64,000 bases of DNA from Pseudoalteromonas spongiae UST010723-006 (GTDB lineage: Bacteria > Pseudomonadota > Gammaproteobacteria > Enterobacterales > Alteromonadaceae): contig NZ_CP011039.1 in assembly GCF_000238255.3 (NCBI RefSeq), forward strand, positions 2,901,001 to 2,965,000, written 5' to 3'. A model generated the notes under the pieces. That model ran no database searches, was not told the DNA's origin, and was given only the letters and a program-made list of their open reading frames with translations. Shown here piece after piece: positions 55,509-62,060 of the stretch. Within the stretch, counting starts at the first letter, position 1, and every line of letters starts with the position of its first letter. The position numbers and the translations under genes are program-made.

Positions 55509-56570
55509 TTACATCGATTGCCAATCGACTTCGTCACTGAGCACTCGCTCAACAGACATATAATGCAAAATGTCGCCCTGTTTTATTTCCATTTCTAGCG
55601 GCGGATTCAAGTCTAATCCCTCACCGATACGGTTATGCGCTACACCTAAAATGGTCGCATCAAACTGCTTTTTAAAGTGGAAAAATAACACTTCAAATTT
55701 AACATTTTGCTTAATTTCACCGACTTCCAAACTAAACTGAGTATCACCATGTAACGTTGAAAGCAGCTCTTCTTGAATACGACTTGAACCTGGATCTTGC
55801 ATCGAGCGTACCAAAATTTCTACCGACTTCGAGCTCGTAGATTCCACGTTTTTACAGTGTTCTCGCAACATCTCACTTTTACTTTCATCAAGAAAGTACG
55901 CGCTGATATGACAAGATGAATGCACTAAGCGACTGATTTTCAGCGCTGTAGTAAACGTATGATCATCATCGTTGCCATCAACGATTACTTTATCAGCACC
56001 ATCTATTGCCACACGCTTAAGTTCATCAACATCAGTGAAACTTGAAAGGCGAACAAAATCCACGTGTGGGTTATCTGAAAACGGATGCGTCATCTGCTCG
56101 TCAACGGCCAATAAAATTCGTCGCTCAAGGCGCTTGTTATCAGCCAAAATATAATTAATCATCTTACGTGTGCGCGAAGGATGATAACCAAAAATTAGAA
56201 TATGTTCGCTTTGTCCTGAATAATCTTTATCGCCCGTCATAGATGCCTTGATTAACCCCGTAATACTTTGTCCAACTTTACCTAACACCACACCAAACAG
56301 TGCTAATCCAATAGGAATTTGCACCAAGGCTACAAATAGTTTTCCCCAATCGGAGCTGGGACTTAAATCACCATACCCAACCGTCGAAGTGGTCACTATG
56401 TAGTAATAAATAAATTGATTTATCCCTAATAACTCTGTTTCTTTCGCTGCAAATAAACACACCCAAGTTAAGAGCATATGTGCTGCCAGCAGAGAAACAA
56501 CCGACGTCCAACTTACATAGTGAATATGGCGTCGAATAGCTACTAGAATTTTCTTTATAACTAAGTTCAT
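55509..56570 (-). CDS. Potassium channel protein with TrkA-N/RCK domain
   Basis: 353 residues. Two membrane helices flank a pore loop with the K+ selectivity filter TSTVGYGDLSPS (about 61-72). The cytoplasmic NAD-binding RCK/TrkA-N domain follows (HILIFGYHPSRTRKMINYIL; ADKVIVDGNDDDHTFTTALKISRL). The C-terminal ~80 residues include a TrkA-C-like segment (HNRIGEGLDLNPPLEMEIKQGD). It likely carries K+ and responds to a nucleotide or voltage. Gating ligand unknown. Single gene. Confidence 0.88.
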   Translation of the reverse strand: MNLVIKKILVAIRRHIHYVSWTSVVSLLAAHMLLTWVCLFAAKETELLGINQFIYYYIVTTSTVGYGDLSPSSDWGKLFVALVQIPIGLALFGVVLGKVGQSITGLIKASMTGDKDYSGQSEHILIFGYHPSRTRKMINYILADNKRLERRILLAVDEQMTHPFSDNPHVDFVRLSSFTDVDELKRVAIDGADKVIVDGNDDDHTFTTALKISRLVHSSCHISAYFLDESKSEMLREHCKNVESTSSKSVEILVRSMQDPGSSRIQEELLSTLHGDTQFSLEVGEIKQNVKFEVLFFHFKKQFDATILGVAHNRIGEGLDLNPPLEMEIKQGDILHYMSVERVLSDEVDWQSM

Positions 56571-56737
56571 GATAACTATTATTTATTTTACTAATGATAC
56601 GCACTGTAGCGCCATCTAATAAGTGGAGCAAGCAGTACGTGAAATTATCTCAGTTTAGATTGCAGTAAAAAAACAGCAAATTGATAGGCAAAATAATGAA
56701 ACCCGTTCTAGACTTAATTTGAACTGTTAAGTTCGAC

Positions 56738-56814
56738 AAAGGCAAACTCAGCGAAAGCTGATGACGCAAAGCTATCGGTCTAAGGGAGCACTCCTATGAT
56801 TGCGAAGCTGCCAC
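56738..56814 (+). ncRNA. Cyclic-di-GMP-I (GEMM-I) riboswitch candidate, orphan
   Basis: The sequence has the full GEMM-I plan on the plus strand. P1 pairs GGCA (56741-56744) with TGCC (56809-56812). P2 is TCAGC-GAAA-GCTGA (56748-56761) with the conserved GAAA tetraloop. The joining strand is TGACGCAAAGC (56762-56772). P3 pairs GCTATC (56771-56776) with GATTGC (56798-56803, one T-T mismatch). P3 also holds a receptor-like loop (TCTAAG at 56779-56784 opposite TATGA at 56795-56799) capped by GGAG-CA-CTCC. The family binds c-di-GMP. There is no same-strand gene within 2 kb; a terminator follows. Confidence 0.8.
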
Positions 56815-56836
56815 GATAACAGGTCGGGGGCTATGT

Positions 56837-56899
56837 AGGCTGCTTCGAAACCATCTCACGAATATAAGAATCATGGGACTTTGGAGCAGCCTTTATTTT
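56837..56899 (+). terminator. Expression-platform hairpin after the riboswitch
   Basis: AGGCTGCT (56837-56844) pairs with AGCAGCCT (56885-56892), with an inner CCAT/ATGG stem. TTTATTTT follows on the plus strand only, so it points away from the riboswitch. Confidence 0.65.
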
Positions 56900-56911
56900 A
56901 GCAATTCACCC

Positions 56912-58702
56912 TTACGCTTTTTTCGCCGTTTCGATGTATGCGTCAATCTGTGCTTCGAGTAAATTCAGAGGAAGTGAACCGTTTTTCAAAATTTGAAAGT
57001 GGAACTCTCTAATATCAAACTCAGCTCCTAACGCTTGCTCTGTCTTTTTACGTAAGCGCTTAATAGTTAACTCACCAATTTTGTATGATAACGCTTGGCC
57101 AGGCCACGAAATATAACGATCTGTTTCAGTTTTAATATTGTGTAGCGACAGCGCAGAGTTATCCTGCATAAAGGTCATTGCGCGCTCACGACTCCAACCA
57201 AACATATGCATACCTGTGTCGACAACTAAACGTGCCGCACGCCACATTTCATAGGTTAAACGGCCAAAATCACTGTAGGCATCTTGGTAAAAACCCATTT
57301 CTTTGCCGAGGTATTCAGAGTATAAGCCCCACCCCTCGCCAAATGCTGAAATATAGTGACTACGACGATAACCCGGCACATTTTCTAGTTCTTTATTGAG
57401 TGATATTTGTAAATGGTGACCCGGCACAGCTTCGTGCAATGTTAATGCTTCTAACACATAAAGCGGACGCTTATCTAAGCCATATGTATTTACCCAATAA
57501 TACCCGGGCGCAGTGTCTTTATTCGCACCGACATAACGACCCGTTGTATATTTAGGCGCGATTGAGTCTGGTACTGGCGCTACACCATACGGTGTGCGAG
57601 GTAGCAGTTTAAAAAACTTAGGTAACTGCGCATCTGCTTTTTTCGCTATAAACGACGCTTCTTTTAATAGTTGCTCAGCCGATTTAGCGTAAAACTGCGG
57701 ATCAGTTCGTAAAAATTGCACAAATTCAGCAAAACTGCCGGTAAAACCAGTTTTCGCAATTACTTGCTGCATTTCATCTCGAATCCGCTTCACCTCAGCT
57801 AAACCCAACTGGTGTACCTGCTCGGCGGTCATATCAGTTGTGGTGTAATGCTTAACACGATTTTGATAAAACTCACTGCCATTCGGCGTGGTTGAAATAC
57901 CAATTTCGGCACGTGCATTCGGCGCATATTCGGTTTCAAAGAACGATAAATAGCTTTGGTACGATGGAATCACGCTGTTGCTTATAATCGATTGCGCTTG
58001 CGTTTTAAGTTTTGCAAAATCAGCGTCAGAAATGTGCTCTGGCTTGTTTTTAAATGGCTTATAGAACTCCGACTGTTCTGGGCTTTTTACAATAAACGCA
58101 TTAATTGAGTCCTCATAACCTAACAGCACTGGTTTTGGCTGAGTTAGCCCTATCGCAATCCCCTTTTTCATCCACGCTATATTCTGCTCAAAATAACGCG
58201 GTACACCTGCAAGCCGTTTTAAGTAAAGCTGATAATCTTCAACGGTTTTAAAGCTGCTGCGCGACACCATAAATGACAATGCAGAGTGAAAACCAAACTC
58301 AGAGGTTAACGGCATGTAGTGTGCATTAAAGTCATACTCATCTACCGAGTTTTGCACTTGAGAAAATATAATCGCGTGGTTAATCCGGTTTTGCTCATCC
58401 AACGCGCTCACATCAACAGCGTTTAATCGCGCTAAAAACGCAACATTCTTGGCATGATTATTAGCTAGAAACTCAGGTGATAAATCTGGTAAAAAATAAC
58501 CGTTAACACCTTCTTTTTGTTGATACGGGTCAACACTTTTACGATATGCCACAATGTCATTCGCAACACTTTCAAAGACACTCACGCTCTGCGCTTGCAC
58601 ACTCGTTGAAGTAGCTGCGGTGATATCTTGAGTAGATTGGCAACCTACCAATAAAGTACTAGATAATGTTAACGCAACTAGGGATAAATTGAACGGTTTC
58701 AT
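56912..58702 (-). CDS. DUF885-family zinc peptidase-like lipoprotein
   Basis: 596 residues. Signal with lipobox LLVGC (C21), so anchored in the outer or inner membrane. The core is DUF885, with the metallopeptidase motif HEAVPGHH (about 423-430) and a downstream Glu in AFGEGWGLYSEYLGKEMG. Members act as carboxypeptidase- or dipeptidase-like enzymes; the substrate here is unknown. The C-terminus KNGSLPLNLLEAQIDAYI is typical. Single gene; its 3' end faces the riboswitch hairpin at 13 bases. Confidence 0.88.
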   Translation of the reverse strand: MKPFNLSLVALTLSSTLLVGCQSTQDITAATSTSVQAQSVSVFESVANDIVAYRKSVDPYQQKEGVNGYFLPDLSPEFLANNHAKNVAFLARLNAVDVSALDEQNRINHAIIFSQVQNSVDEYDFNAHYMPLTSEFGFHSALSFMVSRSSFKTVEDYQLYLKRLAGVPRYFEQNIAWMKKGIAIGLTQPKPVLLGYEDSINAFIVKSPEQSEFYKPFKNKPEHISDADFAKLKTQAQSIISNSVIPSYQSYLSFFETEYAPNARAEIGISTTPNGSEFYQNRVKHYTTTDMTAEQVHQLGLAEVKRIRDEMQQVIAKTGFTGSFAEFVQFLRTDPQFYAKSAEQLLKEASFIAKKADAQLPKFFKLLPRTPYGVAPVPDSIAPKYTTGRYVGANKDTAPGYYWVNTYGLDKRPLYVLEALTLHEAVPGHHLQISLNKELENVPGYRRSHYISAFGEGWGLYSEYLGKEMGFYQDAYSDFGRLTYEMWRAARLVVDTGMHMFGWSRERAMTFMQDNSALSLHNIKTETDRYISWPGQALSYKIGELTIKRLRKKTEQALGAEFDIREFHFQILKNGSLPLNLLEAQIDAYIETAKKA

Positions 58703-59073: not shown

Positions 59074-60084
59074 ATGAAGTACCATGATTCCATGGCACAG
59101 GCGCAGCAAAAAATGACGGAGGTTTGCTGGTTTTTAGAAAGGTATAACTTACCACCAATTCCGATCAACTATCATACGATCTATAGCTATATCTCAAAAT
59201 CTCATGATGCGCTGTGCGAAGAAATTGAAGCACTGCTTGCTGCCGACGAAAAATTAGATAGTTACACCCTAGAAAACCTATTTAATCGCTACTTATCTGA
59301 ACACGATTCAAGCCAAAAGAAGCTTGTTAAAGGTGTGTCAGAAACAATTGATATTATGGATAATTCAGTTGACCAGAGCAGTGATAGCGTAAACAAGTAT
59401 ATTGCCACATTAGATAGCAGTTTAGTTGCCATTGACGATGCAGATATCAGTGAAGCAAAACAGCTTATTGCTGACCTAATTGATGCGAGCTATGAACTAA
59501 AAGGTTCGCAACAACACGTGCATGAATCATTATTACAAGCTAGACAAGAGCTTAAAAATTGCCAGCAGCAACTGCAACAAATTGAAAAGCATCGCCATGT
59601 TGACCCACTAACCGGCCTATATAAAGAAACCTACATGGTGGATAAAGCTGCGGTTTGGGTAGAGCAAGGTAAATCCTTATGTGCTATAGCCATTGATATT
59701 GATGACTTTAATGACTTTAATGAGAAGTATGGTCAAGCGGTAGGCGATGTTGTCATTGGTAAAGTCGCCAAAAAAATTCGTTCGTACGTGCAAGACAGTG
59801 GTCTGCCCGTGCGTACTAAAGGCAAAGAGTTTATGATTTTACTGCCTGACGTTAGCGTACAAACAGCAAAAGAAATTGCAGAACGCATGCGCTCTGGTGT
59901 AGAAAAGCTAAAATTTATAAGCTCTCGCAGTGGTAAGCGCTTACCAACACTAACCGTTTCGTTAGGTATTAGCGAGATGAAAGAAAAAGAGCAAGATCTT
60001 AAGCAGCTAACTGCAGGCGCCAGACACTCTGTCGCAAGAGCCAAACTTCAAGGTAAAAATAACGTATTTTTTAATACGCATTAG
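59074..60084 (+). CDS. GGDEF-domain protein with degenerate active site
   Basis: 336 residues, soluble. The N-terminal ~165 residues are helical with a coiled coil around 145-175 (QARQELKNCQQQLQQIEK). The C-terminal GGDEF domain has the entry motif HVDPLTGLYKE and the metal-region IDIDDFNDFNEKYG. The signature itself is K249-G-K-E-F253 (RTKGKEFMILL) in place of GG(D/E)EF, so diguanylate cyclase activity is unlikely unless the substitution is tolerated. It has no RxxD inhibitory site. A receptor or scaffold role is inferred. Confidence 0.85.
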   Translation: MKYHDSMAQAQQKMTEVCWFLERYNLPPIPINYHTIYSYISKSHDALCEEIEALLAADEKLDSYTLENLFNRYLSEHDSSQKKLVKGVSETIDIMDNSVDQSSDSVNKYIATLDSSLVAIDDADISEAKQLIADLIDASYELKGSQQHVHESLLQARQELKNCQQQLQQIEKHRHVDPLTGLYKETYMVDKAAVWVEQGKSLCAIAIDIDDFNDFNEKYGQAVGDVVIGKVAKKIRSYVQDSGLPVRTKGKEFMILLPDVSVQTAKEIAERMRSGVEKLKFISSRSGKRLPTLTVSLGISEMKEKEQDLKQLTAGARHSVARAKLQGKNNVFFNTH

Positions 60085-60140: not shown

Positions 60141-62060
60141 TTACCCAATCGCGTGAGGTAGTGCGAGCTTAAAGCCCTGAAAGCCATCGCTACCTAACTG
60201 CTGCGCCCATTTGACCTGTTCTTCAGATTCAAGCTGCTCGCATACCACAACAACACCCAAACTGTGCGCTAATTTAATAATATTCTCAAGAAAGTACCAA
60301 GAATCTTGTTTTTGTTCTAACTCACGAATAAAGCTACCATCGAGCTTAACAATATCAACTGGCCACTTCCGCAATGCGAATAATGTATTGTCTCCGGTAC
60401 CAAAGTGGTCAATCGCTACTTTAGAACCCAATTTATGTAACTTAGAAATAACCTGCGGCGCGAGCTGACTTTGCGACAACATTTGTTCATCGAACTCCCA
60501 AATTATAGAAGCAAAAAAGTCTGCAAACTGATGCGCCTGTCCAATCAACCAAGTATAGAAGGTATCGTCTAAGATACTGTGGACCGACACATTAATACTC
60601 ACAGGCAAATCCAGCTGCCCTTTTACATACCAACTTCTAATCAAATTAAAAATACGCTTATCGAGTTCGCCACTTGCTGAAAATTGCTCGGCTTTTGATT
60701 GCAGTAATAAAGTAGGGATCACTTCGTCCTGGTGGGTGATTTTCGTGAGCACTTCTGAAAACATTAAACTAACTTGGTCTGACATCATTACGCTATGTTG
60801 CGATAAGCCCAGTGTTGATTCACTAATCGCCATTAAAACACGCTCACGTGTCGCTAGCATATCTGATACTTTTTTAATATGTTGAGACGGTTCATATAGA
60901 TGATATTTTCTGCGTTCTTTCGCAGCAATTAAAACGGCTTCATCTGCCGCTTTCATAACCTTCGACATTGCCTCACCGCTTTGCCACAACACAGCGCCTA
61001 CTAATACTTCTTTCTTTTGCTGGTATTGCCCTTGCAAACGAGCCAAGTGCGACGCCATGTCACTCAAAACTTTAACTAGCTCATCTCGCGTAACATGCTG
61101 TAACACACACGCAAATTCATTGTCGTTTAAGCGAAAAATTCGTGCATTAACACCTTGCTTTGAATGTGTTTGCAAGGTGTATATCACATCTTCTAAAAAG
61201 GACCGCGCTACCGAAAACCCCTCTTTACGACGAACCGTTTCCCACTCACTTAAGCGCACTAATATTAGTGCTCCGCTTTGGTTTTTCTCATCACTTAGCA
61301 ATTGATCAAATTGCGCGCAAAACAAACGGCGATTACCAAGTTGCGTAAGTTCATCTCTGTATAACGCGTTTTTAGCATGTCCCAAGCGCTGAGTTAGCTC
61401 GTTGACTAGCTCTTTTACTTGATTTGTCATGCGATTGTGGCTCGACATTAACGCGTTCATTTCAGCCACACTTTGTATCTCAGGTGCCTCGGTAAACTCT
61501 TTATTTGCAAGTTTATTGGTGTGTTGATGCAAAGCATCGATCGGGGCTTTAAGCGCGCGAATTGCAATATGTAAAATAAACCAAGCAAAACAGATGAAAA
61601 AAGCAAATACCGCACACACATCTTTAAATGAGTCATAGATATAGTTATTCGCGGGCGAAGACTGTAGCTGCAATTGCACCATGTACTCTTGCTCTGCAAG
61701 TGCGAAACTTTGTTGAAATAATGGACTAGAAACAGACAGGTAATTTGCAAGCCACTTTGGCATAGTCGAGGGCTGTGTAACACGCTTTTCAATTAAAGTT
61801 TTATCAAGGTGCTGCACTCTAATATAAGCATATTGATGTAAACGGCTAAACTGCGAAACATGCTCCGTCAATAACTGGTGATTAGCATTTGCAGACTGCG
61901 AAATACTTTGCACTAACGTTAACCCCAACAATTCAGTTTGCTCAGCGAGCTGATGCTTCATAAATGCCTTGCTATTGCTCACGGTAAAACTGGTAATCAC
62001 AATAAAAAGTGAGACCATAATGAAAGCAACAATCACATTAAAATAGGTTTTCAGGGTCAT
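60141..62060 (-). CDS. LapD-like c-di-GMP receptor (LapD/MoxY_N-HAMP-GGDEF-EAL, degenerate)
   Basis: 639 residues. Helix at 8-27, a ~115-residue periplasmic domain with the family Trp (W103 in MPKWLANYLSV), a second helix at about 148-168, HAMP, then GGDEF with NDNEF (312-316) and an EAL domain with EVLTK (436-440), DHFGTGDN and CEQLES where active enzymes have EALLRW, DDFGTG and AEGVE. Both catalytic sites are degenerate. In Pseudomonas, LapD binds c-di-GMP with its EAL domain and holds the periplasmic protease LapG, protecting a surface adhesin. No lapG or adhesin gene is next to it. Confidence 0.85.
   Translation of the reverse strand: MTLKTYFNVIVAFIMVSLFIVITSFTVSNSKAFMKHQLAEQTELLGLTLVQSISQSANANHQLLTEHVSQFSRLHQYAYIRVQHLDKTLIEKRVTQPSTMPKWLANYLSVSSPLFQQSFALAEQEYMVQLQLQSSPANNYIYDSFKDVCAVFAFFICFAWFILHIAIRALKAPIDALHQHTNKLANKEFTEAPEIQSVAEMNALMSSHNRMTNQVKELVNELTQRLGHAKNALYRDELTQLGNRRLFCAQFDQLLSDEKNQSGALILVRLSEWETVRRKEGFSVARSFLEDVIYTLQTHSKQGVNARIFRLNDNEFACVLQHVTRDELVKVLSDMASHLARLQGQYQQKKEVLVGAVLWQSGEAMSKVMKAADEAVLIAAKERRKYHLYEPSQHIKKVSDMLATRERVLMAISESTLGLSQHSVMMSDQVSLMFSEVLTKITHQDEVIPTLLLQSKAEQFSASGELDKRIFNLIRSWYVKGQLDLPVSINVSVHSILDDTFYTWLIGQAHQFADFFASIIWEFDEQMLSQSQLAPQVISKLHKLGSKVAIDHFGTGDNTLFALRKWPVDIVKLDGSFIRELEQKQDSWYFLENIIKLAHSLGVVVVCEQLESEEQVKWAQQLGSDGFQGFKLALPHAIG

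Follow-up and report, generated by a model that had tools for sequence, protein, structure and literature searches.

merRNA of Bdellovibrio bacteriovorus is a massively expressed RNA of 445 nt, and in the available part of the paper its authors saw no conservation of it outside the Bdellovibrio lineage (PMC3627812). In Vibrio cholerae, P1-Vc2 is described in a review as a putative small RNA tied to a c-di-GMP-I riboswitch whose level follows that of c-di-GMP (PMC10240345), and Vc2 itself is placed upstream of tfoY in the accessible part of another paper (PMC11218506). It has also been reported, in the available sections of a survey of antisense-acting riboswitches, that the c-di-GMP family is the most enriched among them, with 152 antisense and 2,554 sense cases (PMC9943018). 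The same sections picture the uncharacterised Colwellia ORF A3Q33_07785 as one example, which may or may not correspond to the DUF885 gene and riboswitch treated here (PMC9943018).

The RNA considered here lies on the plus strand of the window (i.e., the whole stretch of 64,000 nucleotides that was analysed), where its aptamer is followed by no same-strand gene at close range. The preferred reading, with a probability of roughly 0.55, is that the locus encodes a non-coding RNA in its own right, which would bind c-di-GMP autonomously instead of serving as an mRNA leader. A search of the text of open-licence papers found no description of this RNA family.

The RNA unit and its neighbours in the window

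First of all, positions 56731-56815 of the plus strand match RF01051 (c-di-GMP-I) with 77.2 bits and an E value of 1.9e-13 in the Rfam scan. This score, which the earlier note had proposed to obtain, is well above the gathering cut-off of 35, and the match spans model positions 1-87 of 87, that is, a full-length aptamer. It is the sole Rfam match in the whole window at gathering thresholds, and the genome-wide search for RF01051 returned this aptamer and no other. The core motifs that the earlier note had read from the letters are readable in the aptamer sequence and in the Rfam alignment: a P2 with a GAAA cap, GACGCAAAGC and, in P3, the receptor-like sequence UCUAAGG / CCUAUGA. The coordinates in the note proved right to within a few bases. 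Judged by its aptamer sequence, 56731-56815 is a member of the c-di-GMP-I riboswitch class, and ligand binding is predicted for it. A same-strand gene behind the riboswitch, which is typical of the class and not part of the definition of the aptamer, is absent here for 2.2 kb.

The neighbourhood was also described correctly by the earlier note, in which the next plus-strand gene was placed more than 2 kb away and the 3′ end of a DUF885 gene directly beyond the hairpin. The DUF885 gene (56912..58702, minus strand; PF05960, E 3.7e-173) stands tail to tail with the RNA; its end at 56912 is about 97 nt from the aptamer and therefore within 500 nt, which is the geometry of an antisense riboswitch. 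On the other side, the ion-channel gene (55509..56570, minus strand; PF07885) is divergent from the RNA, and the next plus-strand gene, which encodes a GGDEF-domain protein (59074..60084; PF00990), is separated from the RNA by 2.2 kb across DUF885. The motif at the GGDEF site of this protein reads KGKEF, RNA-less relatives in the genus have SKDEF, SKDAF and similar motifs, and many Colwellia-type relatives retain (A/G)GDEF. A further gene on the minus strand (60141-62060) encodes a GGDEF/EAL protein that also has a HAMP domain and whose N-terminus matches LapD/MoxY weakly. In all, two c-di-GMP-related genes adjoin the RNA, one at 59074-60084 on the plus strand and one at 60141-62060 on the minus strand.

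The aptamer (56731..56815) is embedded in a larger conserved unit, the parts of which were followed in an alignment of eight genomes of the genus. Upstream, the -10-like box TAGACT (56709..56714, plus strand) is conserved in this alignment within CTAGACTTAA / CTAAACTCAA, and it is kept as CTAGACT or CTAAACT across the eight orthologues. By eye, ATGACA is found 17 nt upstream of this box in G102, G103, G014 and G061 and is absent in the window, where the best upstream sigma-70 score is only 8/12, i.e., weak by consensus. A consensus promoter scan of 56500-57000 gave one promoter-like site, which was no better than those in shuffled sequences. The box is followed by the predicted 5′ hairpin P0 (GAACT-GTTA-AGTTC, 56721..56734, plus strand), fully paired in 6/8 orthologues and broken in G014 and G061. 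Since this hairpin and the -10-like box both belong to the conserved unit, the unit starts near 56709-56720, and the transcript would presumably begin near 56720.

Behind the aptamer, the linker AACAGGTCGGGGGC (56818..56831, plus strand) is near-invariant in the eight orthologues and contains GGGGGC at 56826-56831, an element common to the window form and to the sister RNAs treated below. The hairpin followed by T-rich sequence that had been noticed earlier appears in the predicted folds as a terminator-like structure (56838..56899, plus strand), conserved in the eight orthologues with a variable loop length. Its arms are GGCTGCTTCG (56838-56847) and GGAGCAGCC (56883-56891), and the tract TTTATTTT (56892-56899) comes next. 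The simple terminator scan takes loops of 3-8 only, so that this hairpin is unlisted there. The fold of 56731-56905 has a z value of -2.14 against shuffles, 6/200 of which were as stable or better. An origin of the locus from a plasmid was rejected, 56560-57000 having given no match in the plasmid collection.

Relief of this terminator, by which an antisense transcript would run into DUF885, had also been suggested. In the fold of the window the aptamer and the terminator coexist at a cost of 0.1 kcal/mol, and the cost is 0-2.0 in the six loci examined. For an antiterminator, the transcript was cut before the 3′ arm of the terminator and the pairing of the 5′ arm with the upstream sequence was computed. 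The mean probability of pairing between the 5′ arm and the aptamer region was 0.77 in the window, 0.82 in G063, 0.81 in G103 and 0.03-0.71 in the other five. A conserved antiterminator is not supported for the window's form, because this pairing is inconsistent over the eight orthologues (0.03-0.82), although the window itself, where it is strong, may have one; given also the coexistence of aptamer and terminator, relief into DUF885 is not supported in this form.

Orthologues within the genus

The genus sampled (108 genomes) is presumably Pseudoalteromonas, and the family, by GTDB usage, presumably Alteromonadaceae. Across the genus RF01051 was matched 115 times, in 81/108 genomes. The flanks were read for 93 of the 115; for the other 22, the coordinates were set by eye against those of the best DUF885 match in the respective genome, and the only adjacent one (G071:C433) was then read. 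Among the matches listed, most copies in the genus shortly precede a same-strand ORF, which is usual for the class. A place like that in the window, between the ion-channel gene and DUF885 and opposite to both, is occupied in G000, G044, G063, G097, G102, G103, G014 and G061. A ninth copy, in G071 (L266), lies at the same place with a decayed aptamer core (GACACAAAG), a score of 38.3 bits and an altered G-rich element, and it keeps an intact terminator-like hairpin including a compensated pair (CTTCA/TGAAG). To go by its sequence, this RNA has possibly lost ligand binding yet kept its body. The comparison with related genomes that the earlier note had envisaged therefore finds the same RNA with the same neighbours in 9/108 genomes of the genus, one of the nine copies being decayed.

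The channel and DUF885 proteins of the eight loci fall to about 61-67% identity to those of the window. Over the same loci the RNA can be aligned well from the -10-like box through aptamer and linker to the hairpin, with gaps mainly in loops, and RNAalifold gives 38 pairs on the eight orthologues, five of them with compensatory changes. That is to say, the architecture of the RNA and its chromosomal place are both conserved. It could still be supposed that the RNA is a former leader riboswitch that is now functionless. Its presence in only nine genomes, once visibly decayed, would agree with such a relic, and so would loci with the same neighbours and no RNA: in G055 and G078 the gap between the channel gene and DUF885 is 82 and 87 bp, against about 300-360 bp at RNA-bearing loci. 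However, the aptamer in the window scores 77.2 bits, the promoter box, linker and terminator are conserved over eight genomes, and the orphan arrangement is common to several genera, so that a relic is very improbable.

DUF885 was found in 108/108 genomes of the genus. Among the best 30 DUF885 loci the RNA is present in seven and lacking in 23, and the GGDEF gene is kept in all 23 RNA-less loci (23/23); ten further RNA-less loci were read, in nine of which the GGDEF gene is kept, G078 being the one that misses it. Since RNA-less loci retain GGDEF, the linkage between DUF885 and GGDEF is independent of the RNA, i.e., background synteny. Moreover, the RNA is dispensable or replaceable, because only 9/108 genomes carry it. 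Separately, two c-di-GMP-I aptamers of another type, L096 (G079) and L109 (G080), were seen without a downstream same-strand ORF of 100 aa in the fetched stretch, and from their sequence context they are perhaps another orphan class.

Sister RNAs across the family

A covariance model was built from the eight genus orthologues and used to search the genomes of the family. At E <= 1e-10 it matches in 103/395 genomes and 21/52 genera, ordinary riboswitches being counted among these matches. Aptamer plus GGGGGC, a pattern that finds both forms of the RNA, occurs in 76/395 family genomes and 18/52 genera, and the reversed control pattern occurs 0 times in the family sample among the matches listed. 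A pattern scan with one genome per species led to 65 sister stretches, mostly titled Colwellia, Cognaticolwellia, Thalassotalea, Litorilituus or Alteromonadaceae, with single records titled Endozoicomonas, Colwelliaceae and Gammaproteobacteria bacterium. In one record, L158 (NZ_JAGHQT010000005.1, titled Endozoicomonas sp. G2_1), the RNA is identical over the compared stretch to that of G108, a genome of the window's own family, and the record is possibly mislabelled.

Where the flanks are long enough, many sister loci have the same neighbours as the window, namely tesB and orf86 upstream and, on the other side, DUF885 and GGDEF, and therefore the sister RNAs occupy the same chromosomal place as the window RNA. 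In G128 (L118), a sister-like RNA stands beside a homologue of the window's ion-channel neighbour (54% identity). When the order was searched with the sister model, the matches obtained outside the family had scores of 65-93 bits; in all eight of those read (L267, L268, L269 and L271-L275), GGGGGC is absent behind the aptamer, and in each a same-strand ORF follows or overlaps.

A promoter like TTTACA-N16-TATAAT stands directly before the sister RNA, with 11/12 consensus positions in 58/65 loci, 10 in six and 7 in one; a score of 11 is reached by 0.3% of shuffles. The hairpins of the sister RNAs covary. The 5′ hairpin, at the same place as P0, has three pairs changed on both sides and 92.2% of cells paired, and the one whose loop carries GGGGGC has three pairs changed on both sides and 95.4% of cells paired. 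As a control, the partners of the whole sister structure were slid, by which pairing dropped from 95.3% to 31-41%.

In addition to these hairpins, 65/65 sister RNAs contain a complement of the aptamer core, CTTTGC or TTTGCG, 32-48 nt further on from the GGGGGC hairpin and in poorly conserved sequence. The six central pairs of the resulting core/tail helix are formed in 65/65. The helix is almost without covariation and does not exceed the shuffle control, the invariance of the core limiting this kind of evidence. In folds of the full-length sister RNAs the core pairs with the tail in 65/65, the lowest mean probability being 0.857, and with shuffled tails it does so in 15.4% of 195. The aptamer pair that was tested has, before the tail is present, a median probability of 0.77 and exceeds 0.5 in 75% of the 65 loci; with the tail present it is essentially zero in all of them. 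To enforce the aptamer in the full-length RNA costs 7.9-21.3 kcal/mol in six examples. On paper, the sister RNA is thus a mutually exclusive switch, and the folds make control of this switch by the ligand plausible. The switch would probably be set while the RNA is being made, for at equilibrium ligand binding could not repay so high a cost. The window form is without the core-complementary 3′ strand, in the place of which the terminator hairpin stands.

A strand of this kind was also seen outside the family. L271, L272 and L274 (family f25) are ordinary gene-leading c-di-GMP-I riboswitches, seemingly with an aptamer-complementary strand (TTGCGTTGCC...) before the same-strand ORF, so that a core-complementary strand alone is not unique to the sister RNAs.

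These architectures bear on the main alternative, in which the RNA is a sponge or store of c-di-GMP, i.e., an abundant RNA that binds and holds the second messenger, as has been proposed for merRNA of Bdellovibrio (PMC3627812). A stand-alone aptamer RNA with its own terminator, an aptamer stably folded in the window's form and a near-consensus promoter in 58/65 sister loci would all suit a store. Nevertheless, a store needs neither the conserved GGGGGC element nor the aptamer-closing 3′ strand of the sister RNAs, and the promoter of the window looks weak, so this alternative is considered unlikely. Action in trans by pairing is preferred over a store, because the GGGGGC element and the switchable 3′ strand of the sister form are conserved beyond the needs of a mere store.

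The flanks of the 65 sister loci are as follows: 48 face an opposite-strand DUF885 gene, 11 have GGDEF directly downstream without DUF885, two have neither (one of them, L191, judged on 2.5 kb downstream only) and four offer too little flank. Beyond DUF885, GGDEF is found in 20 of the 48, is lacking within 3.3 kb in 12 and could not be judged in 16 for too little flank. DUF885 is therefore absent beside the RNA in 13/61 judgeable loci, and GGDEF is absent in 14/45 loci with enough flank. The loss of a downstream gene, which the earlier note had named as the plain alternative, is not supported as the explanation by these loci, for 48/61 also face DUF885 and the remainder have GGDEF directly (11) or neither gene (two).

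The score of the RNA is indifferent to these neighbours: the median is 189.8 bits with DUF885 and GGDEF, 190.3 with DUF885 only, 187.6 with GGDEF only and 189.6 with neither. In L156 the DUF885 ORF is truncated (194 aa), and the RNA is intact at 187.8 bits. Both arrangements occur within one genus group in g25 (G205 with DUF885; G174, G233, G252 and G270 with GGDEF) and in g34 (G140 with DUF885; G211 with GGDEF). Since the RNA persists at an equal score without DUF885 or without GGDEF, it is independent of both, and neither neighbour explains it. The stand-alone RNA that the earlier note had put forward as one of its readings fits well with this, the whole unit being conserved at one syntenic place and surviving the loss of either neighbour.

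The same loci bear on control in cis, by which c-di-GMP would set read-through past the RNA, either to GGDEF (directly, or across DUF885 as a non-contiguous operon) or as an antisense of DUF885. A same-strand GGDEF gene is found downstream in 31/45 sister loci with enough flank, directly in 11, DUF885 stands tail to tail in 48/61, and the sister form has a mutually exclusive tail; antisense-acting c-di-GMP riboswitches have already been predicted, as the available sections of the survey state (PMC9943018). Against this, the RNA scores equally without DUF885 (13/61), without GGDEF (14/45) and with neither (two), the RNA-less loci of the genus retain DUF885 and GGDEF, DUF885 lies at anything between about 96 and 580 nt from the core in the ORF lists, and the window's form lacks a conserved antiterminator. 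Control in cis as the general role of the RNA is accordingly quite unlikely.

Proposed action and comparison with described systems

According to the preferred reading, a dedicated RNA gene, the locus would comprise about 180 nt (near 56720-56899) with a promoter region, a 5′ hairpin, the aptamer, the G-rich linker and a terminator hairpin. For the Colwellia-type sister RNAs, mutual exclusion is proposed between the 3′ strand (CUUUGCGU) and the aptamer core. If c-di-GMP were captured during transcription, the aptamer would be held folded and the 3′ strand left free; without ligand, the RNA would fold back and close. The window's form would have a constitutive terminator in place of the 3′ strand and be a c-di-GMP-binding small RNA of fixed length, with the G-rich linker as the likeliest site of contact with a partner. 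Some lineages may in addition use the RNA to control read-through into GGDEF where this gene lies next to it. What counts against an autonomous RNA gene is the weak promoter of the window (8/12) and the presence of the RNA in only 9/108 genomes of the genus, and the 31/45 sister loci with GGDEF downstream on the same strand (11 directly) would suit a cis role.

Genomic complements to the linker were searched for a trans target and identified none: besides the linker itself there is one place with one mismatch and three with two, which does not exceed the three matches of the control. A wider reading is offered tentatively and is somewhat less probable than its opposite. It sees an ancient family of autonomous, c-di-GMP-gated small RNAs, once mRNA leaders and now regulators in trans, in which the ligand would decide which of two elements, the G-rich loop or the 3′ strand, can pair, and which would have kept one chromosomal place in 18 or more genera of marine bacteria.

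A riboswitch that lacks a gene is readily taken for a relic, and the comparison made here points to one that is maintained as a separate gene with two architectures, independently of its neighbours. With the RF01051 class the window RNA shares a complete aptamer well above the cut-off. The class normally leads a same-strand gene, whereas the window RNA has none for 2.2 kb and has its own conserved linker and terminator. The same holds in relation to Vc2, which precedes tfoY, while no same-strand gene stands behind the window RNA (PMC11218506).

With the antisense-acting riboswitches, as far as the available sections describe them, the window RNA shares its location, no more than 500 nt away from where a gene on the opposite strand ends (PMC9943018). 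In these sections such loci are read as regulation of the opposite gene, whereas here the RNA persists without that gene in 13/61 loci (PMC9943018). That is to say, the RNA is not kept together with its presumed antisense target, its score being unchanged where DUF885 is missing. This is also a warning: where geometry is the only ground for calling a locus antisense-acting, the target assigned to it may be wrong.

merRNA and the predicted window RNA are alike, by description and to the extent of the available part of the paper, in being non-coding, in being centred on a c-di-GMP riboswitch and in lacking a conserved ORF downstream (PMC3627812); here, 48/61 sister loci and the nine genus loci face DUF885. 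The RNA offers a testable system for the question raised by merRNA, namely whether an aptamer for a second messenger acts in trans or as a buffer. Compared with merRNA, which in the same part of the paper measures 445 nt, the window RNA is a predicted RNA of about 180 nt, and its pattern is conserved over 18 genera of one family (PMC3627812).
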